Origin: an uncultured Veillonellaceae bacterium
Lineage (GTDB): Bacteria; Bacillota; Negativicutes; Selenomonadales; Selenomonadaceae
Reading direction: 5' to 3'
DNA length: 42,698 nt
NCBI GenBank assembly: GCA_900316275.1
Contig: ONCF01000003.1
Coordinates: forward strand, 1 to 42,698
Shown: positions 2,251-37,756 of the stretch, one piece after another
Position numbering within the stretch: the stretch's first letter is position 1
How the letters are laid out: each line of letters opens with the position of its first letter
Made by a program: the position numbers and the translations under genes
The notes under the pieces: generated by a model
The model's database searches: none
The model's input: the letters and a program-made list of their open reading frames with translations, nothing else
Told to the model about the DNA's origin: nothing

Positions 2251-3249
2251 ATGCTAAAAGAAAAGATGGAACTCGGGAGAGTGACCCTGAAAAACCGCTT
2301 GGTTATGGCACCGGTGGATTTGGAGAAATCAGACCACGGCACCGTGACAGACGAGCAGCTTTCCTATTATGAAGAACGTACAAGGGGAGGATGTTTCGGG
2401 CTTGTTGTCATCGAACACAGCTTTGTAAAGCCCAACGGACGCGCCACCGAACATCAGCTTTCCGTCGCCAAAGACGAGAATATTGCAGGACTTGCCAAAT
2501 TGGCCGAGGTCATTCATAAGAGTGGCTCCAAAACGGTCATGCAGCTTTCTCATGCGGGATCGGCAATTAAGAAGGCGCAGGTGGCAGAGGAAGGCATTAG
2601 TCCCAGCGGGCTTGCCAGTCCCGCCTTGGCCTCGGACAGAACGCTTCAACGGACACATGCCATGACGCACGCGGAGATTGGTGATCTGGTGGAGCATTTT
2701 GCCCTTGCGGCTGAACGCGCGAAACGGGCAGGTTTTGACGGCGTGGAAATTCACAGCGCACACGGTTACCTGCTCAATCAGTTTTACTCGCCGCTCACGA
2801 ACAAGCGGACGGACGCTTACGGAGAAACCATCGTAGGACGATTGAAAATCCATCGAGAGATCATCACCGCCGTAAGAGATGCCATCGGCGAGGATATGAT
2901 TTTGGGCCTGCGGCTTGGAGCTGCGGACTACATGGAAGGCGGAAACACCATAGCGGACGGGGGCGCCGCCGCAAAAATTTTCGCCGGAGCGGGGCTGCAA
3001 TACATCAGCATTTCCGGCGGTCTGTGCGGATCAAGGCCAAAGGATAAAACAGGCGCGGGCTATTTCGGCGATGCCTCCGAGGCAATCAAGAAAGCCGTAA
3101 ATATCCCGATCATTCTCACTGGCGGAGTGCAAACGTCAAAAGATGCCGAAATGCTCCTGCGGGAGAAAAAAGCAGATATGATCGGGGTTGCCAGAGCGAT
3201 CGTTGCCGATCCTGATTGGGCAAGGAAAGCATTGGCAGAATTGTGCTGA
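2251..3249 (+). CDS. NADH:flavin oxidoreductase, Old Yellow Enzyme family
   Basis: A 332-residue FMN TIM-barrel ene-reductase. The N-terminal LKNRLVMAPV, the mid-protein signature HSAHGYLLNQFYSPLTNKR (about residues 170-188) with the substrate-binding H-x-x-H, and the FMN-phosphate segments LTGGV and GVARAIVADPDW near the end are all present. It lacks the C-terminal 4Fe-4S/NADH domains of dienoyl-CoA reductases, so it is the short, single-domain class that reduces alpha,beta-unsaturated carbonyls or nitro compounds with NAD(P)H. The ATG at 2251 follows GGAGCAGGAG; an upstream in-frame start would overlap the cupin gene without need. Last gene of the MarR operon, with a strong terminator 65 bases downstream. 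The natural substrate is unknown. Confidence 0.92.
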   Translation: MLKEKMELGRVTLKNRLVMAPVDLEKSDHGTVTDEQLSYYEERTRGGCFGLVVIEHSFVKPNGRATEHQLSVAKDENIAGLAKLAEVIHKSGSKTVMQLSHAGSAIKKAQVAEEGISPSGLASPALASDRTLQRTHAMTHAEIGDLVEHFALAAERAKRAGFDGVEIHSAHGYLLNQFYSPLTNKRTDAYGETIVGRLKIHREIITAVRDAIGEDMILGLRLGAADYMEGGNTIADGGAAAKIFAGAGLQYISISGGLCGSRPKDKTGAGYFGDASEAIKKAVNIPIILTGGVQTSKDAEMLLREKKADMIGVARAIVADPDWARKALAELC

Positions 3250-3313
3250 TTTATTTGAAATATTATGAGGGAAGCCGAACTTGTGAAACACGAGGGGTGC
3301 AAAATCATCGCCA

Positions 3314-3349
3314 GGGGGCTGCCGCAAAACTGCAACAGCCCCCTTTTTT
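3314..3349 (+). terminator. Rho-independent terminator of the MarR operon
   Basis: GGGGGCTG pairs with CAGCCCCC (8 bp, 14-base loop) followed by seven T. It ends the marR to Old Yellow Enzyme operon. Confidence 0.88.
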
Positions 3350-3354
3350 ATATT

Positions 3355-4059
3355 TTAAATGTCCCAGTGCAGTTTATCTGGGTTCGGCGTCGCGCGGTCA
3401 ATCTGGTTGAGGATGAAAGCTGCGTTGTCGTGCGTGGGCGCGAAGGCGACTTCGAGGCCCTCTTTATATTCCTCGGGGATTTCCATTGCGTGCAGCGCCA
3501 TGTGCATGTAGTCCTTGGCTACGAGCGTGACGTGACGCTCGGCCGCGAGCTGCGCCTTGAAGCGGTAACCGTAGTAGAGGTAGCTGTTGTGTGCGATGGG
3601 GATGTCCACGTAGGCCGCGATGCGCTCGTCGACCTCGGACTCGGCGTCTTGCGTGAGGTTCATTTTATGCATGAGATTCCAGCGGTCGCCCCAGAGCTCG
3701 CCGCGCAGGATATATTTATAGAGGAAATCCGTCGACTCGGCGAGCTCAATGGCCATATCGATATGTTTGAGCGCGTCGTCGTCTTTATTAATTTCTTTTT
3801 CCAGCGAACTCAGACGCTGCAGGGCAAAGCACTTCTCCTCGACATCCTCGGGATTGTCCTCATCCACATCCTGCTCGACAATACTATGGAAGAGCTCGAG
3901 CGCCTCCGCCTTTTTGTCGATGCCCTGCATGGCGAGAAAATGCGCGAGGCGCGCGCGGGCGTGCCAGTTGTCCATGCCGCCGACAAAGAGCGTCTCGGGC
4001 GGATGCGCCGGGGAGTCCAGGACGAGATGGACGAGCTGGTGAAATGTTTCCTGTGTCAT
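3355..4059 (-). CDS. Hypothetical helical-repeat (TPR-like) protein
   Basis: A 234-residue soluble, acidic, helix-rich protein that I do not recognise as a named family. Paired helices such as WHARARLAHFLAMQGIDKKA and EEKCFALQRLSSLEKEINKD, each with small-large-aromatic spacing, suggest three or so tetratricopeptide-like repeats between about residues 25 and 190. The ATG at 4059 has AGGAGG ten bases upstream; the longer frame beginning at 4098 would start inside the -10 box and is rejected. It is transcribed alone, away from the phosphoethanolamine transferase. There is no signal peptide or membrane segment, so a cytoplasmic scaffold or partner-binding role is the most that can be inferred. 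Confidence 0.8.
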   Translation of the reverse strand: MTQETFHQLVHLVLDSPAHPPETLFVGGMDNWHARARLAHFLAMQGIDKKAEALELFHSIVEQDVDEDNPEDVEEKCFALQRLSSLEKEINKDDDALKHIDMAIELAESTDFLYKYILRGELWGDRWNLMHKMNLTQDAESEVDERIAAYVDIPIAHNSYLYYGYRFKAQLAAERHVTLVAKDYMHMALHAMEIPEEYKEGLEVAFAPTHDNAAFILNQIDRATPNPDKLHWDI

Positions 4060-4096
4060 ATGATGTAAACCTCCTGATTGACGTTTTATCCTTTTC

Positions 4097-4126
4097 ATTA
4101 TAGCTTTTTTACGGTGGCGGTGGCAA
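4097..4126 (-). promoter_or_regulatory. Promoter of the TPR-like gene
   Basis: On the minus strand TTGCCA (4126-4121), 18-base spacer, TATAAT (4102-4097). A TATAAT facing the other way at 4138-4143 may serve the divergent phosphoethanolamine transferase gene but has no good -35. Confidence 0.6.
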
Positions 4127-4172
4127 GGGGATTGCGTTATAATGGCAATATGTTTGTGATGGAGGTTGCCTG

Positions 4173-5987
4173 ATGTCGATGAAAGCCGTAGCCGATTACC
4201 TGGGCGGCGCGCTGGTGCGCAGCTGGCCCGCGGGGCTGTTGTTGTTCGTTTTGAATTTCTTCCCGCTTGCCTGGCAGAATATCCATATGTATCAGGGCAC
4301 GCAGCTCGCCGTGCTGGGGATGGATGCGGTCTTCCTGCTCGCGGGCTGCCTGCTCTACGCCTGGCTGCTGGTACTCATGCCGTGGCGGCCGCTCAGGCGT
4401 ACACTGCTGGGCGGGTCGCTGGGGCTCTGCCTGCTGCTGGCGGGGCTGGAGCTCTTTACCATCGTGACGTATGAGGCGCTCGTGGGCGCGGGCATCGTCA
4501 CGGCCATTTTGCAGACGAACCCACACGAGACAGGGGAGTTCCTGCGCATGTACATTGGCTGGCGCGGTGCAGCTGCCTTTGTGGTGCTCGTTGCGGCCGG
4601 GCTGGGCCTGTGGCGCTGGCGGAGGAAACGTCGGCAGAGGGCAAACGGGTGGTGGCCCGCCGATATGGGGGAAAGTGTAAATACACAGGCGGAGCATATA
4701 ACGCAGGTAACAGCAATAAATACGGCGATAGCGCATGACAGGTTCTTGACAGCAGGTCAGGCCACCGGGCAGGCGCGCTGGTGTTGGCTGCTCTTACCAC
4801 TGGTGGTTATGTTCGTAGGCGGTGGCTGGGCGTTGTGGACGCAGTGGCATTCCTTTGTCATCAACGACAGCCTCGACATCCCTGTCGTGCGTATCGTACG
4901 GGCGACGGACACGGCCGTGGCGAATATCCGCGCCTTTGAGCAGCTCAAAAGCGCGGCGGCAGCTGACGTGCAGATTACACAGAACAACAGCGACGTGCCG
5001 TATGTGGTCTTTATCCTCGGCGAGTCGACGAGCCGCGCGCGCATGCACCTCTACGGCTATCCGCTGGCGAACACGCCGAACCTCGACGAGCTGGCAGCCA
5101 AAGGTGAGCTCGCCGTGTTCCACGATACGATTGCGCCCGCGACGGCTACGGTGGCCGTGCTGCGGCGCCTGCTGACGTTTGCGGATAACGAGTCACAGAA
5201 GCCGTGGTACGAGCACAATAATGTCATGGATGTCCTGCACGCGGCGGGCTATCGCACGTACTGGCTCTCCAATCAGGAGAGTTCCGGCATCTGGGGCAAC
5301 GTGGCGCAGCTGTTTGCCAGCCGCGCGGACGAAAGCCATTTTACGCAGCTGCGGGAGTCGCACGAGGACAATGGCAGTCTAGATGAGCAGCTGTTCCCGC
5401 TCGTGGACGCGGCGCTCGCGCGACCGGCGGCGAAAAATTTCTACGTCATCCACCTCATGGGCGCACACGGGCTCTACTACCGGCGTTATCCGTACCTCTT
5501 TACGAAATTCACACCCGCCGACGTGCCACCACCGCAGGATACGCTGCCGGACGACGAGCGGCTGGAGGTCGCACAGTACGAGAACGCCATCTACTACAAT
5601 GATTTTGTTGTGAGCTCGCTCATGGGCAAGTTTGCCGATAAAGAAGCGCTCGTCTTTTACTTGCCTGACCACGGTGAGGACCTCTACGACGACGGACGGC
5701 ATTTCTCCGGCCACGTGGAGGAGCACCCGACGAAAGCCACGTGCGAGGTGCCGTTCCTCATCTGGGCCTCGCCCGCGTACCGCGCACATCATGCGGACAA
5801 ATGGCAGGCCATCTGCGCAGCCGTGGACCGCCCCTATATGACGGACGACTTCATCCACACACTTTTGGAGCTGCTCGACATCCAGACCGTGGAGTACGAC
5901 CCGGCGAAAAGTGTCGTCAATCCCGCGTTTGACGCCAGCCGCTGCCGTATCGTCTATGGCCAGAATTATGATACTGCACTCAAATAA
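4173..5987 (+). CDS. Lipid A / LPS phosphoethanolamine transferase (EptA/CptA-type, alkaline phosphatase fold)
   Basis: A 604-residue inner-membrane enzyme that transfers phosphoethanolamine from phosphatidylethanolamine to lipid A or core sugars on the periplasmic face, a change that lowers surface charge and resists cationic peptides. The N-terminal half holds about five hydrophobic segments (residues 10-155 and again 205-225). The sulfatase-type domain starts near residue 275 with VVFILGESTSRARMHLYGYP (metal-binding Glu), then IAPATATVAVLRR with the likely nucleophile Thr near 323, and the metal site LPDHGEDLYD plus GHVEEHPT near 490-520. A hydrophilic stretch of about 50 residues (155-205) separates the membrane helices, longer than I would expect. 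The start follows GGAGG. Lipid target cannot be told from sequence. Confidence 0.88.
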   Translation: MSMKAVADYLGGALVRSWPAGLLLFVLNFFPLAWQNIHMYQGTQLAVLGMDAVFLLAGCLLYAWLLVLMPWRPLRRTLLGGSLGLCLLLAGLELFTIVTYEALVGAGIVTAILQTNPHETGEFLRMYIGWRGAAAFVVLVAAGLGLWRWRRKRRQRANGWWPADMGESVNTQAEHITQVTAINTAIAHDRFLTAGQATGQARWCWLLLPLVVMFVGGGWALWTQWHSFVINDSLDIPVVRIVRATDTAVANIRAFEQLKSAAAADVQITQNNSDVPYVVFILGESTSRARMHLYGYPLANTPNLDELAAKGELAVFHDTIAPATATVAVLRRLLTFADNESQKPWYEHNNVMDVLHAAGYRTYWLSNQESSGIWGNVAQLFASRADESHFTQLRESHEDNGSLDEQLFPLVDAALARPAAKNFYVIHLMGAHGLYYRRYPYLFTKFTPADVPPPQDTLPDDERLEVAQYENAIYYNDFVVSSLMGKFADKEALVFYLPDHGEDLYDDGRHFSGHVEEHPTKATCEVPFLIWASPAYRAHHADKWQAICAAVDRPYMTDDFIHTLLELLDIQTVEYDPAKSVVNPAFDASRCRIVYGQNYDTALK

Positions 5988-6007
5988 CAAATTTTTAAAA
6001 AAAGATG

Positions 6008-6036
6008 TTGACAGATGCGTTAACATGGCCTATAAT
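6008..6036 (+). promoter_or_regulatory. Consensus promoter of tRNA-Ala
   Basis: TTGACA at 6008-6013, exactly 17 bases, TATAAT at 6031-6036: a perfect sigma-A consensus, as expected for a strongly and constitutively expressed stable RNA. The tRNA begins 45 bases further on. Confidence 0.92.
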
Positions 6037-6081
6037 AATATCTGTTGTTGAGAGCGAAAGCCAAATAACAAAAACTGCATC

Positions 6082-6157
<76 letters not shown>

Positions 6158-6166
6158 GGAAATTAC

Positions 6167-6200
6167 AAGGACTAAGGTGTTTCACCTTGGTCCTTTTTCG
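6167..6200 (+). terminator. Terminator of tRNA-Ala
   Basis: AAGGACTAAGGTG pairs with CACCTTGGTCCTT (13 bp, one G-T, loop TTT) followed by a T run, ten bases after the tRNA CCA end. Confidence 0.92.
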
Positions 6201-6291
6201 CATTTGTAGCGTAAGAAAAATTCCACAAAATTGTTTTTGCGGGCAGGAAATGTGTGCTCACTGTAGAAGATAGGAAGTATAAAGGACAAAT

Positions 6292-7344
6292 GTGGAACAG
6301 GGTGAGCAGATGCAGGATGTGTGGCAGAGCTGGTGGCTGCCGCTGGTGCGGGCGGCTATCGGGGTGGAGGCTTCGGATATTCATGTGACGGCAGGACAGG
6401 CGGCGTGGCTGCGGCGCGCGGGGGTGCTGACGCGGCAGGGGAGTGTACAGCCTACGGAGGCTGTGCTCTGGGATGTGCTCGTGCGCCTGCTCACAGATGC
6501 GCAGCGGCAGACTTTGCGCCAGCAGCGCATGCTGGATTTTTCCTGGGCGTATGACGGGCGGCGCTTTCGCGGCAATGCGTATTTCCAGCAGGGCGTGCCC
6601 GCACTGGCGCTGCGTCTGCTGCCGGCACGGATACCGACGCTGGCGGAGATTGGCGCGCCGCCCGCGCTGGTGTCGCTGGTGACGGCGGAGCAGGGCCTGT
6701 TGCTAGTCACTGGCAAAACTGGCGCAGGCAAGACGACAACCCTGGCGGCTTTTCTCGACGCGGTCAATCACAGCCGCGCTGCCCATATCATCACGCTGGA
6801 GGACCCGCTGGAGTATCTTTATCAGCCGGAGCAGTGCTTTATCAGCCAGCGCGAGTACGGGCGGGATTTCCTGTCGTTTGCTGAGGCCTTGCGCAGTGCT
6901 CTGCGCGAGGCGCCGGACATCATCCTGGTCGGCGAAATCCGCGACGCGGAGACGATGCGCATGGCGCTTATGGCGGCAGAGACGGGCGTATTCGTGCTCG
7001 GCACGTTGCATGCGGCGCGGGCCTCGGAGGCGGCGCTGCGCATCGCGGGCTTTTTCCCGCTCGTGGAGCAGGATATGGTGCGCGCGCAGCTGGCGGAGGT
7101 GCTCACGGGCATTTTTGCCCAGCGGCTCGTGCCGGCGGCCGCTGGCGGGCGCGTGGCGACGCTGGAGGTGCTGCTCGCGACACCGGCTGTGCGCAGCCTC
7201 ATCCGCCAGGGCAAATACGCGCAGCTTGACTCGGCCATGCTGGGGCGCGGTGGCATGCAGACGGGCGACATGGACCTCGACCGCCTCTATGCAGCTGGCG
7301 AAATCACGCGTGAGACGCGGGAGAAATATCATTCACATAATTGA
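6292..7344 (+). CDS. pilT: PilT-like type IV pilus retraction ATPase
   Basis: A 350-residue hexameric secretion ATPase of the GspE/PilT superfamily. Present in order are an N-terminal PAS-like domain with the EASDIHV motif, Walker A GKTGAGKTTT (about 141-150), the Asp box LEDPLEYLY, the ISQREYGRDFLSFAEALRSA segment, Walker B IILVGEIRD, the His box LGTLHA, and a C-terminal AVRSLIRQGKYAQLDSAM stretch that is typical of PilT rather than PilB. The tetracysteine zinc motif of PilB is absent. The start is GTG at 6292 after AAAGGA; ATG at 6310 is an alternative. It is directly followed by a pilC homologue, so it probably drives retraction of a type IV pilus whose other genes lie elsewhere. Retraction role is inferred from family. 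Confidence 0.9.
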   Translation: MEQGEQMQDVWQSWWLPLVRAAIGVEASDIHVTAGQAAWLRRAGVLTRQGSVQPTEAVLWDVLVRLLTDAQRQTLRQQRMLDFSWAYDGRRFRGNAYFQQGVPALALRLLPARIPTLAEIGAPPALVSLVTAEQGLLLVTGKTGAGKTTTLAAFLDAVNHSRAAHIITLEDPLEYLYQPEQCFISQREYGRDFLSFAEALRSALREAPDIILVGEIRDAETMRMALMAAETGVFVLGTLHAARASEAALRIAGFFPLVEQDMVRAQLAEVLTGIFAQRLVPAAAGGRVATLEVLLATPAVRSLIRQGKYAQLDSAMLGRGGMQTGDMDLDRLYAAGEITRETREKYHSHN

Positions 7345-7349
7345 GGTAA

Positions 7350-8684
7350 ATGACGATGCCGGAATTTCAGTATAAGGCCTGCAATCGTGCGGGGCAGGTC
7401 ATGCAGGGACATTTGACAGCAGCCAATCGTCAGGCGGCGGCGCATGCGCTGCGCACGCAGGGGCTGTGGGTGACGCAGCTGGAGGAGCAGCGCGCAGCAC
7501 GGCGTTTTTGGCCCTGGCACGGCGAGGGCCAGCAGACGGCGCCCCTGCCTGTGGATAGTGGCATGGCGGGGCAACGACCAGTGCCTCGCGCTGCGCAGGT
7601 GGCGGCGGGCCATACAGGTGACGCTACGGTGTGGTGGCAGCGGCTGACACAGTCGCGCCTGTCGCGGCGCGATACAGTGCTGCTCTGCCGTCAGCTGCAG
7701 GTCATGCTCGCGGGCGGCCTGCCCCTGCACGAGGCCGTGCGTACATTGGCGCAGTCGGGTGCGGGCACCGCGCGGCAGCGCTTCCTGCAGCAGGCACTCA
7801 CGGATTTGCAGGCCGGGCGCAGTTTAGCGGACAGCTGCCGCCGCGAGCCGCAGGCCTTTCCCGCAGCCATGTGTGAACTGATCAGTGTAGGCGAACGCAG
7901 CGGCGGCTTGCAGGAGATTTTGGCGCGGCTGGCCGACTATCTGGCCGTGTCCTATGCGGCGGGGCAGAAAATGCAGTCAGCGCTGCTGTATCCCGTGTTG
8001 CTTGGTGTGTTCTCGCTGCTGGCAATTTTTCTCCTGAGTATTTTCGTGTTGCCCGCTTTTGCTGACCTGCTGACGAGTTTTCACACGGCACTGCCCTGGC
8101 CGACGGTCGTGGTGCTGACGGTCTCCCGCTGGCTGCAGGCCGAGTGGTATGTGGCGCTCGCATGGCTGACCGTGCTGGGGATTGGCGCGGCTGCATTGCT
8201 GCAGGTACCGGCAGTGCGCCTCGTGCTCGACCGCTGGCGGTTGCAGGTGCCACTACTGGGGCGACTGGAACTCTACGGACACTGGCTGCGGCTCTGTGAC
8301 ACGCTGGCCGTACTGCTGGAGAGCGGCATCCGTCTCGACCGCGCACTGCAGATGCTGCCAGCGACGACGGGTAATCGCTATCTGCAACTTTGCCTGCGGC
8401 GTGCGGCCCAACAGGTCGTAGCGGGGCAGTCCTGGCAACGTGCCCTGCAGAGTGCCTGCCCGGCGGCTATTCGCGATATGGCAGCAGCTGGTGAGGCCTC
8501 GGGACACCTGCCGGAGATGCTGCGTCACGCCGCGGATCTCTGCCGCGTCATCACGACGAGCCAGCTGCGCCGCCTCGAGGCTCTCGCTCAGCCCGTGGCC
8601 ATCCTCGTCATGGGCAGCCTCATTGGTTTTATCCTGCTCGCTGTGGCACTGCCGCTCCTCGACGCGATGACGGCTATCTCGTAA
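7350..8684 (+). CDS. pilC: PilC/GspF-type inner-membrane platform protein
   Basis: A 444-residue polytopic protein of the type II secretion F family, the inner-membrane platform on which pilus motor ATPases act. It opens with FQYKACNRAGQVMQGHLTA, the usual N-terminal cytoplasmic domain, and carries two GspF repeats (about 110-235 and 310-430), each ending in hydrophobic helices, with conserved ISVGERSGGLQEIL in the first and AAGEASGHLPEML in the second. A linker at about 45-95 is Gln/Pro/Ala-rich and longer than usual. Its start is five bases after the pilT stop, with GAGG overlapping that stop, so the two are translationally coupled. The last gene of the pair; no pilin, pilB or peptidase is nearby. 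Confidence 0.92.
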   Translation: MTMPEFQYKACNRAGQVMQGHLTAANRQAAAHALRTQGLWVTQLEEQRAARRFWPWHGEGQQTAPLPVDSGMAGQRPVPRAAQVAAGHTGDATVWWQRLTQSRLSRRDTVLLCRQLQVMLAGGLPLHEAVRTLAQSGAGTARQRFLQQALTDLQAGRSLADSCRREPQAFPAAMCELISVGERSGGLQEILARLADYLAVSYAAGQKMQSALLYPVLLGVFSLLAIFLLSIFVLPAFADLLTSFHTALPWPTVVVLTVSRWLQAEWYVALAWLTVLGIGAAALLQVPAVRLVLDRWRLQVPLLGRLELYGHWLRLCDTLAVLLESGIRLDRALQMLPATTGNRYLQLCLRRAAQQVVAGQSWQRALQSACPAAIRDMAAAGEASGHLPEMLRHAADLCRVITTSQLRRLEALAQPVAILVMGSLIGFILLAVALPLLDAMTAIS

Positions 8685-8700
8685 GTTGAACTCCCGTTTA

Positions 8701-8729
8701 TTGCCTTTACTGGTACAAAACGCTATAAT
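8701..8729 (+). promoter_or_regulatory. Promoter of the lipid-linked sugar operon
   Basis: TTGCCT at 8701-8706, 17-base spacer, TATAAT at 8724-8729. It places the transcription start near 8736, so the GtrA start must lie downstream of 8728. Confidence 0.75.
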
Positions 8730-8769
8730 GGATTTTGTTATGGTAAAGGGAATCAAGGGAGTTTTTTCT

Positions 8770-9207
8770 TTGCGGTTTTTAGATATCATGCGCGGCCAGG
8801 GGCGAGGGGCGGAGATTTTGCGCTTTCTGCTCGTGGGTGGCGGCTGTTTTGTCTTTGACTACGGCCTTATGGTGCTGCTCACGGAGGCCGTGGGGCTGTA
8901 CTATCTGTGGTCGTCCGGTTTGTCTTTTACGGCGTCCGTGGTGCTGAACTACTGGCTTTGCGTGCGTTTTGTCTTTACGGAGGTTGGGCACCAGACGCCG
9001 CGGCAAATGGCGATGTTTATTGGCTCGAGTGTGACGGGACTCTTGCTTACGCAGCTTTGCATGTACGTGCAGGTAGATGTGCTCGGCATCTGGTATACGG
9101 TGGCGAAATTTGTCGCGGCAGGTATCGTGGCTGTCTGGAATTACGTGTGGAAACGCAAGGCCGTGCGTAGCGCTGGCCGCACGGCAGGGCAGGGAGGTCG
9201 AGCATGA
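8770..9207 (+). CDS. GtrA-family membrane protein (lipid-linked sugar flippase candidate)
   Basis: A short polytopic protein of about 145 residues with four hydrophobic helices and the family's opening ILRFLLVGGGCFVFDYGLM and NYWLCVRFVF segments. GtrA proteins are thought to flip polyprenyl-phosphate-linked sugars to the periplasmic face. The TTG at 8770 is preferred because AAGGGA lies nine bases upstream; ATG at 8740 is possible but lies almost on the transcription start with no ribosome binding site, and earlier starts fall inside the -10 box. Its last codons overlap the next gene (ATGA), so it is cotranslated with the ArnT-like transferase. This fits a role in delivering the sugar donor to that enzyme. 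Confidence 0.85.
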   Translation: MRFLDIMRGQGRGAEILRFLLVGGGCFVFDYGLMVLLTEAVGLYYLWSSGLSFTASVVLNYWLCVRFVFTEVGHQTPRQMAMFIGSSVTGLLLTQLCMYVQVDVLGIWYTVAKFVAAGIVAVWNYVWKRKAVRSAGRTAGQGGRA

Positions 9208-30555: not shown

Positions 30556-33500
30556 ATGCGACAGGGATGGGAAAAGCGGCAGGCAGTTGCAAAAAGCAGG
30601 TACGGGGCGTGCCTGCTTTTTGTGCTGCTTTTGCTCGTGCAGCTGGCACTGCCAGCGTCGGCGGACGAACTGGGGCATCCAGGGCAGGGCATAGCTGCGG
30701 CCCCACAGCCCTATCAGTCTGAGGCGTGGCCACAGGAGGAACGCAACATGCGGGTGGCGCTCACGATGTTCCCCGGACTGTACGGCTATGACAGCCGGGG
30801 GGACCGCACGGGCTATGTCTACGACTGCCTGCAGTTCGTGCGCGGTTATCTGCCCTGGCATTTTGAGTATCATGATTTCGCCATGACGGACAGCTGGGCG
30901 TCGCACATTGCGGCGCTGCGTCAGGGCGACGTGGATTTGCTGGCGAATATGCATCGCACGCCGGAGCGCGAGCAGGAGTTTATTTTCTCGCGCATACCCA
31001 TGGGCATCGCGCGCTCCGTGCTGCTGTGCCGCAACGATGACGAGCGTTTTTCCAAGGGCGACTATACGGCCTGCCGCGGTCAGCGCATCGGCATGGTGCG
31101 TGAGTACTACCGCGCCGAGGAGCTCATGACGCAGCTGGGCACGCCGGGGACGGACTACACGCCGGTGGAGTATGAGAGCGTGGGCGCGGCCTATGCGGCA
31201 CTACGCGAGGGCGAGGTGGAGCTCATCCTCATGAGCAGCGTGCAGCCGACGCCCACGGATATGCGCATCGTGGAGTCCTCGAATGGCGAACCGGTGTTCT
31301 TTATGATGCGCGCTGACGAGCAGGAGTATATGCACGAACTGGAACGCGCTATGCTGCGCCTTGACCGCACGCAGCCGGAGTGGTCGAGCGAGGCGTACAA
31401 GCGCTATTATGACAGCCGTGACGCGCTGGAGACGACGATTTCTCCCACAGAGCGGGATTTTCTGCAGCAGTTCGCCCAGTCGGGGCAGGTGCTGCGCGTC
31501 GTGGTCATGCCGCAGCAGCCGCCATATGCCTTTTGGCAGGACGGGGCAATGGACGGTATTCTCGTCGACCTGCTGGCGGCGACGATGGAGCGCCTCGAAC
31601 TGCCATATACGCTGTTGCGGGCCGAGACGCCGGAAGCGGCTCTGGGCTATATCGAGTCTGGCGAAGCCGATATCATCCTCGGCAGTACCCTGGACCTCGC
31701 CAGTGCGGAAAGCGCGGGGTTCCGTCTGTCTTCGCCGCTGCTGCATGTGGGCCTCGGCCGTCTGCAGCGGCGCGGCTATGGCAGCGCGGTGGAGCGCGTG
31801 GCTATGACACGGGCTGTGCATACCCAGCTGACGCGCGCAGGCCTGCTGCCACTATGGACGGAGGTGCAGGTCTTCGATGATTTTGAGGCGGCTGTGACTG
31901 CCGTGCGCAGTGGTGCCTGCGATGCACTGGAGGCACCGTTGCTCACGCTGCAGGACTATCTGCACAAGGATTCGCGCAATGATCTGGAACTGCAGGTGCT
32001 GACGGAGCGTGAGCTGAGCATGACCTTTGCCGTGCGCAATGGCATTGACCCGCGTCTCGTGAGCCTCTTGCAGCACGCGGTGCCCACGGTGTCCGACCCC
32101 GCGTATCAGCACGCCTTTGCCGACCATATGCACTACAGCTTGCCGCCCAGCACGTGGGAAAATTTCGTCAGCAGCCATCCGCAGCAGTTCGTCGTCATGG
32201 CTCTGCTCGTCATCATGAGTATCGCCGGTGCGTCGTACAATATCCTGCGCATTCGCAACAACCGCAAGTTCGAGCTGCGGCGGCAGGAGCTCGAGGCGTT
32301 CCTGCGCTATGCCTGCATGACGAACGAGCTCGTGTCGCGTGTCGACCTCGACAGCCGCACGGCCATTTTTTACCGCCTCGGCGAGGATGGGCACGTGGTT
32401 ATCGAGGAGCGGCCCTGGGTCGTGTCGGACTACGTGGGCAAGCTCGTGCCGGAGGAGCAGCCGCGCTGGGAGGATGACGGCGACCTGCATATAGCGATGG
32501 TGCAGGCCATTCGCGAGGGACGGCAGTTCCAGTGCGAGGAGCACATGCCGGGGCCCAATGGTACGCTCAGGTATCTGCACGTCATTTTCCAACCCATTCA
32601 TGACCCGCGCAACCGGCGCACGCAGTATATTTATTTCCGTTACGACAACACGCAGGAGGTGCTGCAGGAGCGTCAGCAAAAGGAGGCACTCATCGCGGCA
32701 CTCGCGAATGCGGAGGAGGCGAGCAAGGCCAAGGAGACGTTCCTCTCCAGCATGAGTCACGAGATCCGCACGCCTCTCAATGCCATTATCGGCTATCTCG
32801 ATCTCGTGGACCGGGCTGACGTACCACTGGGTAAAATCCGTCACGCTATCCACAACGCGCGCGTGGCCGCGAACACGTTGCTCATGCTCATCAACAATGT
32901 GCTGGACATGAACGCCATCGGGCGCGGAAAAATTCAGGTCTCGTTGTCGCCGATGAATCTGCAGGAGCTGCTCACAGAGCTGCAGACGATTTTCCAGGGG
33001 CAGGCGGACGTCAAGCAGATTACGCTGACGCTGGACAGCTCAAGTCTGCTGCGTGCCGAGGTTATGGGCGACCAGCTGCATCTCCGCCAGGTGTGCAGCA
33101 ATATCATCTCGAATGCGCTGAAATTCACGCCCAAGGGTGGTGAAGTGACGGTGCAGGTGGAGCAGGTGCGGCAGGTGAATGACGTGTACCTCACGACGTT
33201 CATTTTCCGCGATACAGGCATCGGCATGAGTCAGGCGGAGCTGGAGAAGCTCTATAAGCCGTTTGAGCAGGCGAATGCGCGCACGCGCCAGCAGTACGGC
33301 GGCAGCGGCCTCGGCATGTCTATCGCCTGGAACCTCGTCAAGCTCATGCATGGTAATATCCAGGTGGAGAGCACTCCAGGCGAGGGCACGACGTATCATG
33401 TGACGTTGCCGCTGCAGGCGGCCAAGGCACCCACAGAGCCGCAGGCCGAGGCCGAGGAGGTGCAGGCGGTGCCGGGCGTGCATCTGCTGGTGGTGGATGA

Positions 33501-33864
33501 CAACGAGATGAACCGCGAGATTACGCAGGCTATTCTCGAGCAGCGCGGCTACACGGTGGACACGGCCGTGAACGGACAGGAGGCCGTGGAGCGGTTCGAG
33601 CAGGCGCCGGAGGGTACGTATCAGGGGGTCCTCATGGATGTGCAGATGCCCATTATGGACGGCTGCGAGGCGACGAAGGCCATCCGCCACAGCGCGCACC
33701 CGCAGGCCGCGAGCATCTGCATTATCGGCCTCAGCGCCGATGTCTTCGCCGACGACGTGGCGAAGGGTATCGCCTGCGGCATGAACGACTACATCAGCAA
33801 ACCCGTCGACGCCCATAAACTCGCCACCATCCTGGCCCGCTGCCTGCGCGGCGCAAAGCATTGA
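30556..33864 (+). CDS. BvgS-like hybrid sensor histidine kinase with tandem periplasmic binding domains
   Basis: A 1102-residue receptor kinase. After a signal/anchor helix (about residues 17-36) come two SBP_bac_3 domains (about 64-300 and 310-525), a transmembrane helix (about 540-562), a PAS-like domain (about 580-700), a HisKA domain with phospho-acceptor His735 in SSMSHEIRTPLNAI, an HATPase with N box NIISNALKF, DTGIGM and GGSGLGMS, and a C-terminal receiver with Asp1028 in VLMDVQMPIMDG and Lys in SKPVD. No Hpt domain, so phosphate must pass to a separate Hpt or the receiver is a brake. The two Venus flytrap domains should bind a small solute. No response regulator is adjacent. Its ligand is unknown; the layout mirrors the diguanylate cyclase at 15195. 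Confidence 0.94.
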   Translation: MRQGWEKRQAVAKSRYGACLLFVLLLLVQLALPASADELGHPGQGIAAAPQPYQSEAWPQEERNMRVALTMFPGLYGYDSRGDRTGYVYDCLQFVRGYLPWHFEYHDFAMTDSWASHIAALRQGDVDLLANMHRTPEREQEFIFSRIPMGIARSVLLCRNDDERFSKGDYTACRGQRIGMVREYYRAEELMTQLGTPGTDYTPVEYESVGAAYAALREGEVELILMSSVQPTPTDMRIVESSNGEPVFFMMRADEQEYMHELERAMLRLDRTQPEWSSEAYKRYYDSRDALETTISPTERDFLQQFAQSGQVLRVVVMPQQPPYAFWQDGAMDGILVDLLAATMERLELPYTLLRAETPEAALGYIESGEADIILGSTLDLASAESAGFRLSSPLLHVGLGRLQRRGYGSAVERVAMTRAVHTQLTRAGLLPLWTEVQVFDDFEAAVTAVRSGACDALEAPLLTLQDYLHKDSRNDLELQVLTERELSMTFAVRNGIDPRLVSLLQHAVPTVSDPAYQHAFADHMHYSLPPSTWENFVSSHPQQFVVMALLVIMSIAGASYNILRIRNNRKFELRRQELEAFLRYACMTNELVSRVDLDSRTAIFYRLGEDGHVVIEERPWVVSDYVGKLVPEEQPRWEDDGDLHIAMVQAIREGRQFQCEEHMPGPNGTLRYLHVIFQPIHDPRNRRTQYIYFRYDNTQEVLQERQQKEALIAALANAEEASKAKETFLSSMSHEIRTPLNAIIGYLDLVDRADVPLGKIRHAIHNARVAANTLLMLINNVLDMNAIGRGKIQVSLSPMNLQELLTELQTIFQGQADVKQITLTLDSSSLLRAEVMGDQLHLRQVCSNIISNALKFTPKGGEVTVQVEQVRQVNDVYLTTFIFRDTGIGMSQAELEKLYKPFEQANARTRQQYGGSGLGMSIAWNLVKLMHGNIQVESTPGEGTTYHVTLPLQAAKAPTEPQAEAEEVQAVPGVHLLVVDDNEMNREITQAILEQRGYTVDTAVNGQEAVERFEQAPEGTYQGVLMDVQMPIMDGCEATKAIRHSAHPQAASICIIGLSADVFADDVAKGIACGMNDYISKPVDAHKLATILARCLRGAKH

Positions 33865-34133: not shown

Positions 34134-35354
34134 TTATTGAAGCTTTTGGACAAATTTCCGGAATTCTTCTCGTACAATCAAGTTGGGAATCTGCTCGGCA
34201 TATAGCCGTCCGGAGAAAGCCTCGTGCGGCAGGGGAGTGAAGCGGGGGCTGGCGGGGGCGATGGGGGCGTACATGGGGTCGGCGATGATACTGCGCGCCT
34301 GGGCAAATAGGGGCTCGAGGTCGCATTCGTCAGTGGCGCGCAGGGTGTCGGGACGCAGCAGCGAGGCGTCGGTCTCCATGGGCACGATGACGCGGTAGTG
34401 CGTGCCGGTGGCCGCCTCAAGGGCGAGCGCGAGCGACTGCGCATACACATTTTCGCCGATGAGTAAATCCGAGGCTGCATGGCAGCTGGCTTCTATGTCC
34501 GTGATAATGTTGCAGTTTTGTTTATCCTTGGCTGCTTCTTTAATTGCTATTGCCAGTTTTTCTTGCAGTACCCCGATGGGGACACCGATGACATATGGGA
34601 TACCGCACTGCTCGTAGAGCACGCGTGCAGCGCCGAGACCGCCGTAGCTGAGTACGACATTGACGTCGGCGGTTGTGCTGGTCTCGATGTCGGCGAGCGT
34701 GGAGCCCATGGCCCAGCAGCTTTGCACGGTGAAATCATTTGCCGTGGCCCAGCTGTGTATGCTGGTGACGCTGCCGTTCGTGGCGAAGTCCAGCGGGGTG
34801 ACGCCGAGCAGGTTGATACGTATAGTCTTTTGCGTGTCTGGTGTAGCACCAGAATTTTGTGCCGGTACCGTCGTTTTTGCCCAATACGGCTCGCGGCCCT
34901 GGCTGGCGGTGGCGACGTGGTGGGACAGGTACTCAAGTGCGTAGTTGATGCCCTGCGCGTAGTAGTGCATGTTGTTCGTGGGCAGGGTGAACGTGGGCGT
35001 GCCCGTGGCCTGTTCGACAAGGCGCGCGAGCGCGGCCATGTCGGTGCCAATCATAAAGGGAATCTGGCTCGGAATGAGGCAGACAAAGGCGGGCTGCTGC
35101 TGGTGCACGGTCGCGATGGTTTCGTCGAGCAGGTGCTGGTCGTTGCCGAGGATGGCATCCTGCTCGTTGAGCCCGGAGACATAAATCATACTGTCCATGT
35201 CGTACCAGCGCGGTTCATCATGCGTCGTGTAGGTGGAGTTGCAGCCGGAGGGGTCGTGGATGACGACCATGCCGCCGAGCTCGAACAGGGCGGAGCAGAC
35301 GCCGAACGTGTCGGCGGAGTAGGTAGAAATGATGCGCGCGGTCTGTTTCAGCAT
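34134..35354 (-). CDS. Nitrogenase component 1-like protein (second subunit, NifK-like position)
   Basis: A 406-residue protein of the nitrogenase component 1 superfamily (PF00148). The first 110 residues show the fold's cluster-binding region: IHDPSGCNSTYTTHDEPRW with Cys38 and FVCLIPSQIPFMIGTD with Cys92, spaced like NifK/BchB cluster cysteines, plus Cys20. NifK-type length is about 500, so this is a short member. The rest has alternating Rossmann-like units (IRINLLGVTPLDFA; DVNVVLSYGGLGAARVLYEQ). ATG 35354 is chosen because GGAGG lies 12 bases upstream; GTG 35363 is possible. It overlaps the upstream subunit's end. Real nitrogenase is excluded by the lack of FeMo-cofactor ligands and of nifH nearby. 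Substrate unknown. Confidence 0.85.
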   Translation of the reverse strand: MLKQTARIISTYSADTFGVCSALFELGGMVVIHDPSGCNSTYTTHDEPRWYDMDSMIYVSGLNEQDAILGNDQHLLDETIATVHQQQPAFVCLIPSQIPFMIGTDMAALARLVEQATGTPTFTLPTNNMHYYAQGINYALEYLSHHVATASQGREPYWAKTTVPAQNSGATPDTQKTIRINLLGVTPLDFATNGSVTSIHSWATANDFTVQSCWAMGSTLADIETSTTADVNVVLSYGGLGAARVLYEQCGIPYVIGVPIGVLQEKLAIAIKEAAKDKQNCNIITDIEASCHAASDLLIGENVYAQSLALALEAATGTHYRVIVPMETDASLLRPDTLRATDECDLEPLFAQARSIIADPMYAPIAPASPRFTPLPHEAFSGRLYAEQIPNLIVREEFRKFVQKLQ

Positions 35355-36685
35355 AAGCAGCACGGTCCTCCCCAGCCTTTGCGGCGAATGAGCGCCTCGG
35401 TGTCTTTCGGTGTGGCAAAGGCTTCCTGCATGAGTTGGGCGAGCTTGATGATGCCGGTAAAGGCAAAGAGCCCGCCGCCTTCAACGAAGTTGACAAAGTA
35501 TTCTGTGCCCGTGAAGTAGGCGGCCTTCTGGCCGAGTGCGAGCCATTGCTCGCCATCTGTTGTGCGCGGTTGCAGGCGCATGTCGGCGTTTTTCGTGGCC
35601 CAAAGCTGCATATCCGGGCAGTGTGTCTGCAACCAGCGGAAATTAGGCTCGTCCTCGGGCAGAAAGGCGTCGGCGTAAAGGGCGCGTACGTTGAAGCCGT
35701 GCGCGACGAGCAGGCGCGCGAGGCTCGCGGGGTGAAAGACGAAGGTAAAGTCGATGGCAATGGGCATGTCGCCGATGGCTGCGTGCAGGTCGGCGAGGGC
35801 CTGCTCACAGGCGGCACGGCGCGGTGTGTAGTCAGGGCGCGGCACGCCGATGCGGTTGGCGACTGCGTTGAGCCCGGCCTCGATTTCCTCATAGCGCCAA
35901 AGCTGCGGGATGTGCAGGGCGTCCTGTCCCAGGCGTTGCGTACAGTCGGCGGCCGCAGGGCCGGTGAAGGGATTGTACCAGATGTTGAACTGGCAGCGGG
36001 CCATTTGCAGGAATTCGTCATAGGTTTGGCACGTCGTCATATCGCGCACGGTCCAGCCGTTTTGCGTGAGCAGCCGTAGCAGGTCACTTTCCTGGTCCGT
36101 GGGCAGATTGGAACCGAGGATGTTGCAGGCGTGGGCGTCTTTTTGCGCAGGCGGCACAGGGCGCAGCTGACGGTAGATTTCGCGGCGCTCGCGCTGCTCG
36201 GGCGTGATACTGCGCGTCTGGCGGATGGGGTCCATCATACAGGGGATGAAGTCGATGGCGGGATATTTCGCGCGCAGCGTGTCGTAGACGTAGGTGAAGT
36301 TCACGCCGAGGAAGTGGTGCACGCAGGCGGGGAAAACGAGAATGGCGCGCGGCCGCTGCGGCAGGCGGTCGACGATGTCGCTGATGCCGTCGATGAGGAA
36401 ATGCTCGTTGTCGACGTCCGTGAGGTCCTGCTCCTGCACCTCAATGGTGGAGAAGCGGTCCATAGCACCCATCTCGGCGGCCGTGAGCACGACGCCGCGC
36501 AAACAGCCCGAGGCGCAGATGTAGATCTGGTGCGACTCCGGCAACTGCATGCCCGTATGCACGATGTTCCAGGTGCCACGCGCGGCGGGCGAGTATTCGA
36601 GCGTATGTGCAAACGGTGCGGGGAACGCCGCGTCAGCCAGACGCACGCAGGCCCGCGTCGGCCGCCCATTGATTTTCGTCAGCAC
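35348..36685 (-). CDS. Nitrogenase component 1-like protein (first subunit, NifD-like position)
   Basis: A 445-residue partner of the downstream protein, same superfamily. Cluster-type cysteines are Cys57 and Cys61 in HQIYICASGCLRGVV and Cys121 in AILVFPACVHHFLG. The N-terminal HTLEYSPAARGTWNIVHTGM matches a group of uncharacterised nitrogenase-like proteins of Firmicutes. The nitrogenase cofactor-binding Cys and His near the C-terminus are not seen; instead FVNFVEGGGLFAFTGI stands there. The protein ends in GGPCCLC, an odd cysteine-rich tail directly over the next gene's start. GTG start with GAGGTG overlapping the hypE stop, so translation is coupled to hypE. Likely a redox enzyme subunit with a bridging Fe-S cluster; reaction unknown. 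Confidence 0.85.
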   Translation of the reverse strand: MLTKINGRPTRACVRLADAAFPAPFAHTLEYSPAARGTWNIVHTGMQLPESHQIYICASGCLRGVVLTAAEMGAMDRFSTIEVQEQDLTDVDNEHFLIDGISDIVDRLPQRPRAILVFPACVHHFLGVNFTYVYDTLRAKYPAIDFIPCMMDPIRQTRSITPEQRERREIYRQLRPVPPAQKDAHACNILGSNLPTDQESDLLRLLTQNGWTVRDMTTCQTYDEFLQMARCQFNIWYNPFTGPAAADCTQRLGQDALHIPQLWRYEEIEAGLNAVANRIGVPRPDYTPRRAACEQALADLHAAIGDMPIAIDFTFVFHPASLARLLVAHGFNVRALYADAFLPEDEPNFRWLQTHCPDMQLWATKNADMRLQPRTTDGEQWLALGQKAAYFTGTEYFVNFVEGGGLFAFTGIIKLAQLMQEAFATPKDTEALIRRKGWGGPCCLC

Positions 36686-36694
36686 AATATCACC

Positions 36695-37756
36695 TCAGCA
36701 AATGCGTGGCAGCAGCTCGCCGCCCGGCGCGGGCAGCATGGTCTGTGTGCCGATTTCCGTATCGACGATGACTTTGCCCGCATTTTCCGCCGTAACGGTG
36801 CCGATGATGGCGGCCTCCTGCGAGTACTTGCCCTGACGCAGTACCTCGACAAGCTGCGGCGCGATGCTCTGCGGCGCGAAAATAACGAGGCGGCCCTCGC
36901 AGGCGAGGTAAAGCGGGTTGAGGCCGAGCATGCCGCAGACGCCTTTGACGGCCGGGGCGACGGGGATGTCGGCCTCGTGCAGGCGGATACCGACGTGGCT
37001 TTCCTCGGCGATTTCGTAGAGCACGGTGCCCACACCACCGCGCGTGGCGTCGCGGATGACGTGGATGTCACCTTTATCGTCCGCGTCCAGGCTGTTGAAC
37101 AGGCTTTCGACCGTGTGCCATAGCGGCGCGCAGTCGCTCGTGACGTCCGCGTCGATATCAAAGTCGTTGCGCGCGAGCAGAATGGTGCAGCCATGGCGGC
37201 CGATGTCGCCCGTCACGATAACGGCGTCACCTGCCTGGGCGCGTGCGCCTGCGGGATGGGCGCCAGGCAGCACCTCGCCAATCCCCGTGGTTGTGATGAA
37301 GATGTGGTCGACCTGGCCACGGCCCGCGACTTTCGTATCACCAGCTACAATGCGCACGCCGGCCTCAGCGGCCGTCTTTTCCATATAGCTCGCGATGGTC
37401 TCGAGGTCGGCGAGGCGGAACCCCTCCTCAATCTGGAACGCGCAGGCGAGGTAGCGCGGACGTGCGCCCATGCACGCGAGGTCGTTGACGGTGCCGCAGA
37501 TGGCGAGCTTGCCGATGTTGCCGCCGGGGAACTGCCACGGCGAGACAATGAAGCCGTCCGTAGTAAAAGCAGCTTTCGTCCCGCCGAGCGGCAGGATAGC
37601 CGCGTCGTCGGCGGTAAACTCGGGATTGCGGAAATGTGCGGCAAAGACATCGTGGATGAGAGCCGCGGTCTGCCGCCCGCCCGCGCCATGCGCGAGGGTA
37701 ATACGTTTATCATCAATTTTTACGTTCATGGATTTGTTTATGTTACTCTTAAGCAT
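36695..37756 (-). CDS. hypE: HypE-like carbamoyl-dehydratase (hydrogenase maturation family)
   Basis: A 353-residue protein of the PurM/AIR-synthetase-like fold. HGAGGRQ, DDAAILPLGGTKAAFTTDGF, SPWQFPGGNIGKLAICGTVN and DATRGGVGTVLYEIAEES are all HypE hallmarks. It ends LLPRIC, the C-terminal Cys that receives a carbamoyl group from HypF and is dehydrated with ATP to a thiocyanate, the source of the cyanide ligands of [NiFe] hydrogenase. The family PRIC tail is therefore intact and the enzyme should be active. ATG 37756 with AAAGG upstream; Met at 37729 is an alternative. It is the first gene of an operon with two nitrogenase-like proteins, with no hypA, B, C, D or F in the window. Whether it serves a hydrogenase elsewhere or the neighbours is open. 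Confidence 0.9.
   Translation of the reverse strand: MLKSNINKSMNVKIDDKRITLAHGAGGRQTAALIHDVFAAHFRNPEFTADDAAILPLGGTKAAFTTDGFIVSPWQFPGGNIGKLAICGTVNDLACMGARPRYLACAFQIEEGFRLADLETIASYMEKTAAEAGVRIVAGDTKVAGRGQVDHIFITTTGIGEVLPGAHPAGARAQAGDAVIVTGDIGRHGCTILLARNDFDIDADVTSDCAPLWHTVESLFNSLDADDKGDIHVIRDATRGGVGTVLYEIAEESHVGIRLHEADIPVAPAVKGVCGMLGLNPLYLACEGRLVIFAPQSIAPQLVEVLRQGKYSQEAAIIGTVTAENAGKVIVDTEIGTQTMLPAPGGELLPRIC

Follow-up and report, generated by a model that had tools for sequence, protein, structure and literature searches.

The stretch of DNA considered here (42,698 nucleotides of contig ONCF01000003.1, from an uncultured Veillonellaceae bacterium of the Selenomonadaceae; called the window throughout) contains hypE and, next to it, two genes for proteins resembling nitrogenase component 1, named D2 and K2. 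They belong to a larger gene set, which also encodes a NifH-like protein (NflH), a further component-1-like pair (D1 and K1), HypF, HypC and HypD. This set probably replaces HydG in the maturation of [FeFe] hydrogenases: HypCDEF and a nitrogenase-like reductase/scaffold would make the Fe(CO)x(CN) unit of the H-cluster. The basis is a conserved operon, its mutual exclusion with HydG, the retention of HydA, HydE and HydF in its carriers, intact Hyp motifs and Fe-S cysteines, and the lack, in most carriers, of a [NiFe] client. That the product of the operon feeds HydE and HydF, and every chemical step on the way there, we infer.

The CO and CN ligands of [FeFe] hydrogenases are generally attributed to HydG. 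Out of 300 sampled genomes of the class, the operon is present in 31 and missing from 269. HydG, a radical-S-adenosylmethionine (SAM) enzyme detected by profile TIGR03955 (all counts refer to matches over the cut-off), is found in none of the 31 carriers versus 169 of the 269 non-carriers (Fisher p = 7e-13, kinship not corrected for). HydA (TIGR02512) is present in all 31, HydF in 29 and HydE in 28, the exceptions being incomplete genomes or split frames. Since HydE and HydF are kept, the idea that the operon replaces HydE, HydF and HydG together was dropped. The absence of HydG from carriers holds likewise in Lachnospiraceae, Clostridium, Coriobacteriia and Lentisphaeria: none of 50 named carriers of other groups has HydG over the cut-off, e.g., Clostridium luticellarii (locus L157), and HydA is found in 41 of the 44 named carriers tested. 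Swaps are seen even within genera. In genus g2, the operon occurs without HydG in G137 and G212, and HydG without the operon in the other sampled members; in genus g13, G133 has the operon, G203 and G267 have HydG. In family f4 only G226 is without HydA, and it has neither HydE nor HydF nor the operon.

The operon is widespread. A scan of 84,980 species genomes revealed 502 stretches encoding relatives of D1, of which 80 were kept and are here called named loci. They stem from Selenomonadaceae (Mitsuokella multacida, Selenomonas montiformis, Schwartzia succinivorans), Lachnospiraceae (Blautia, Roseburia faecis, Eubacterium ramulus, Anaerobutyricum hallii, Coprococcus comes), Clostridium luticellarii, Coriobacteriia/Atopobiaceae, Lentisphaeria and a metagenome-assembled genome of the Synergistaceae. 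The full gene set recurs in Selenomonadaceae, Lachnospiraceae, Clostridium, Coriobacteriia and Lentisphaeria, and its order is conserved across three phyla. D1, HypF, HypD, HypE and D2 occur together in 58 of the 80 named loci and, with NflH in addition, in 26 of 34 loci of the class; several of the remaining incomplete loci end at contig boundaries. The preliminary description of the window had named the conservation of this neighbourhood in relatives beforehand as a test capable of refuting the link between hypE and the nitrogenase-like pair; the link survived it. None of the 80 named loci contains hypA or hypB. In contrast, hydE and/or hydF are found in 24 of them, in some cases within the operon (between D1 and K1 in L141, L148 and L167) and in one case with aspA. 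In family f4, hydF directly follows K2, and in G190 a gene for an aspartase-like lyase comes next; an association of AspA with hyd operons is known (PMC11736057).

Variants were also seen. Loci of family f4 (L056-L061, L072-L075, L083-L086) contain a second NifH-like gene, nflH2, of two types, placed before D2 or after K2. Other families of the class have NifH-D-K-like sets without hyp genes (L078-L082), of which L078 and L079 share a flanking gene set.

In the window, hypE and D2 are separated by a 9-base gap, and D2 and K2 overlap by 16 bases. That the three form a single operon on the minus strand, hypE with two divergent component-1 genes, had been proposed before and is confirmed by positions, gap and overlap alike. 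HypE is identified by its TIGR02124 score (cut-off 252 bits) and an intact C-terminal PRIC, the C-terminal motif being present in 89 of 92 operon copies. D2 and K2 belong to the nitrogenase component 1 superfamily by PF00148 match (cut-off 28.6 bits) and fold. Among relatives, Cys57 of D2 is conserved in 15 of 16 sequences, Cys61 and Cys121 in 16 of 16; K2 has an invariant Cys41 and the motif CNSTYxTHxEPR. This 3+1 pattern of cysteines would suit a [4Fe-4S] site between the subunits. The cysteines of D2 were thus correctly spotted in the preliminary description; its Cys38 of K2 is Cys41, counted from a later start, and its Cys92 is not conserved beyond close relatives.

The window contains no further hyp, nif or hyd gene. 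The earlier statement that NifH and other hyp genes are missing is therefore true for the window but not for the genome, which encodes the NifH-like protein, HypF, HypC and HypD on contig C61 (Table 1). Relatives join both halves in the order nflH-D1-K1-hypF-hypC-hypD-hypE-(nflH2)-D2-K2, and a sister genome of the same genus (G227) has the operon intact (L053). Since these hold one intact operon, the piece in the window is a rearranged, translocated copy; the break falls between hypD and hypE, and each fragment lies within a contig. Contig C114 harbours a [NiFe] hydrogenase operon that includes hypABCDE, and C31 true nitrogenase genes, with one NifH and four strong matches to component 1. Two neighbours may be mentioned: a large hybrid sensor kinase with extracellular solute-binding domains (window 30556-33864, plus strand), which adjoins the displaced hypE-D2-K2 piece, and a Flavodoxin_3 protein (L016:9406-9981, plus strand), encoded divergently from the NifH-like gene of C61. 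The latter is a candidate electron donor to this NifH-like protein; its place is not conserved in the relatives seen.

Table 1. The two fragments of the operon in the genome under study
Gene or product	Location	Strand	Profile match
hypE (operon-type paralogue)	window 36695..37756, gene start (37756) approximate (open frame reaches 37807)	minus	TIGR02124, 400 bits
D2, nitrogenase component-1-like, NifD/E position	window 35348..36685	minus	PF00148, 43 bits
K2, nitrogenase component-1-like, NifK/N position	window 34134..35363	minus	PF00148, 82 bits
NifH-like protein (NflH)	C61 (L016) 8363-9172	same as D1-HypD	
D1	C61 (L016) 6865-8229	same as NflH	
K1	C61 (L016) 5801-6859	same as NflH	
HypF	C61 (L016) 2933-5428	same as NflH	
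HypC	C61 (L016) 2724-2930	same as NflH	
HypD	C61 (L016) 1659-2708	same as NflH	

The NifH-like protein of C61 is a member of the NifH/Fe protein family (235 bits to 1cp2); the P-loop GKGGIGKS and both cluster cysteine motifs are present in 28 of 28 NifH-like sequences. The profiles of all four component-1-like proteins find NifE or a NifEN fusion as their best match in the PDB (for K2 the fusion 9i0g). The AlphaFold model of D2 (predicted local distance difference test, pLDDT, 87.5) matches chains of nitrogenase, NifEN and DPOR at Z scores of ~22-24, and the models of D1 and D2 each match the fold of these three at Z ~20-24, which does not separate an enzyme from a scaffold. True NifDK or NifEN they are not: K2 scores 43 bits with nifE (cut-off 505) and 23 with nifD (cut-off 654), and D2 has no match. 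A true nitrogenase was rejected on account of these scores, far under the cut-offs, and of the separate nitrogenase genes on C31.

HypF and HypE are known to make cyanide from carbamoyl phosphate, and HypCD to build Fe(CN)2CO. The H-cluster requires iron units with one CN, more CO and a low redox state. NifH drives cofactor maturation on NifEN. Our proposal, that the nitrogenase-like part produces or adds CO and converts what HypCD makes into the substrate of HydE, rests on this role of NifH, the best matches with NifE or NifEN, the fold of D1 and D2, and the ability of NifH-like proteins to reduce CO2 to CO (PMC9571451). HypF and HypE would convert carbamoyl phosphate to an enzyme-bound cyanide donor, and HypC-HypD would assemble an Fe-CN-CO unit. 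The ATP-driven NifH-like reductase would deliver low-potential electrons to D1-K1 and D2-K2. These may act like NifEN or DPOR, i.e., generate or add CO, most likely via reduction of CO2, and/or reshape the iron unit coming from HypCD and reduce it to the Fe(CO)2(CN) synthon, the product that HydG makes from tyrosine. The retained HydE and HydF would then assemble the [2Fe] subcluster and insert it into HydA. D1-K1 could be the catalyst and D2-K2 the scaffold, or the reverse. We consider it likely, on the whole, that in many gut and gas-fermenting bacteria the H-cluster normally obtains its CO and CN in this second way, with HypCDEF for cyanide and iron unit, NflH, D1K1 and D2K2 for CO and synthon, and with neither radical SAM chemistry nor tyrosine.

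Of course, Hyp proteins call to mind [NiFe] hydrogenases, and the preliminary description had considered the operon as an accessory to one. The large subunit of [NiFe] hydrogenase (PF00374) is found in 15 of 15 Selenomonadaceae carriers, in none of the 16 of family f4 and in 4 of 44 others, those four being weak partial matches. It is thus absent from 56 of the 60 carriers outside Selenomonadaceae, so that HypCDEF has no [NiFe] client in most carriers, while an [FeFe] hydrogenase is nearly always present without a source of its ligands. By membership, with neither HypA nor HypB alongside and mostly no client, the operon is not a [NiFe] maturation set; on these grounds the accessory role was ruled out. 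A variant of it, a second [NiFe] maturation set with the nitrogenase-like genes as passengers, could point to the [NiFe] hydrogenase operons of Selenomonadaceae (L018, L214-L221), which comprise hypABCDE and lack hypF. It is largely refuted, and highly improbable in our view, by the same absences, by a gene order kept across three phyla and by the trees: operon HypD and HypE from Bacillota, Actinomycetota and Lentisphaerota each form a single clade, split with 100/100 support from the [NiFe]-linked copies of the same Selenomonadaceae. The HypE of the window falls in the operon clade, beside a copy from the same genus. The active-site motifs of the Hyp proteins are intact in the operon copies, with MC(V/L)G in the HypC copies inspected.

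The target of the operon is most likely the H-cluster. A different fate of the ligands would be a separate nitrogenase-like redox enzyme with a CN/CO-bearing cofactor, sharing no more than lifestyle and neighbourhood with the [FeFe] hydrogenase. Component-1 pairs with a NifH are usually enzymes (DPOR, nitrogenase, methylthio-alkane reductase), the two pairs could be a catalyst and its scaffold, and the structural matches do not discriminate. We nevertheless consider this unlikely, since such an enzyme predicts neither the exclusion of HydG, nor the swaps within genera, nor hydE and hydF inside or beside the operon. Less probable still is that the exclusion is a by-product of shared ancestry, carrier lineages having lost HydG for other reasons and the operon being unrelated. 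The restriction of the class carriers to two families, and some 38 genomes of the class with HydA and neither system, speak for it; the recurrence of the pattern in four groups beyond the class and the swaps within g2 and g13 speak against it.

The replacement of HydG by the operon has its own difficulties. The class carriers of just two families are not independent genomes, and the ~38 with HydA but neither HydG over the cut-off nor operon mean that absence of HydG alone does not require the operon. Three named carriers have no HydA over the cut-off, only shorter relatives. HydE of most class carriers reaches only 305-378 bits (cut-off 255), and such divergent sequences might not be a true HydE in every case. 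The HypCD product Fe(CN)2CO exceeds the need of the H-cluster by one CN per iron, which demands an unproved remodelling step. Finally, because the [NiFe] operon of Selenomonadaceae is devoid of hypF, the HypF of our operon may serve both systems there. The ~38 genomes (G101, G263, G268, G274, G200, G094, G020, G134 and others), mostly with HydE and HydF, are a subject of their own: a third route or assembly gaps may be involved, some being incomplete and others not. A divergent D1 in those without HydG and K2 is not supported: the D1 profile found only weak, other component-1 proteins there, and in several of them neither Hyp nor Nfl genes surround HydF.

How does the operon compare with established systems? 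Its proposed role equals that of HydG, the tyrosine lyase, as a source of CO, CN and the Fe(CO)2(CN) unit for HydE/HydF; yet the two are unrelated in sequence, and the operon would use carbamoyl phosphate and probably CO2 instead of tyrosine and SAM. With the HypCDEF of [NiFe] maturation it shares homologous proteins and intact motifs, but its HypD and HypE have their own clades, HypA/HypB are missing, its carriers mostly lack a [NiFe] hydrogenase, and NifH/D/K-like genes stand in the same operon. NifEN, the FeMo-cofactor scaffold, resembles the component-1-like proteins in profile, fold, NifH partner and the logic of cofactor maturation. It differs by low identity (10-17% in structure alignments), and the operon has two pairs, linked to Hyp and hydE/hydF, not to nif. 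DPOR, CfbCD and methylthio-alkane reductase also combine a NifH-like ATPase with a component-1-like pair and an interfacial Fe-S site, but the operon has distinct sequences and includes the complete HypFCDE set in addition. The earlier interpretation, HypE-type chemistry for a diatomic ligand on a nitrogenase-like centre of a new enzyme or maturase, is partly supported: its direction was right and the gene link holds, but NifH, the whole HypFCDE set, the second D/K pair and the likely target were missed.

In several acetogenic clostridia HydE, HydF and HypCDEF had been noted in the absence of HydG and HypA/HypB, which the authors left unexplained (PMC9431212). In the open-access literature we found neither a description of the operon nor a link of nitrogenase-like proteins to maturation without HydG. 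Probably, then, the operon represents a second and undescribed means of assembling the hydrogen-making iron cofactor in common bacteria that live in the gut or ferment gas. If so, it would account for the missing hydG and the orphan hypCDEF of the acetogenic, gas-fermenting clostridia (PMC9431212), a puzzle that a knockout could test. It would join parts of three assembly lines for metal cofactors, those of nitrogenase, [NiFe] and [FeFe] hydrogenase, connect the assembly of hydrogenases with nitrogenase-like proteins, represent a second solution to the problem of making toxic CO and CN ligands, and offer a new tool for hydrogenase production. It would also account for hydrogenase maturation in Blautia, Roseburia, Anaerobutyricum, Mitsuokella and relatives of acetogenic clostridia, which were found here to be free of HydG.

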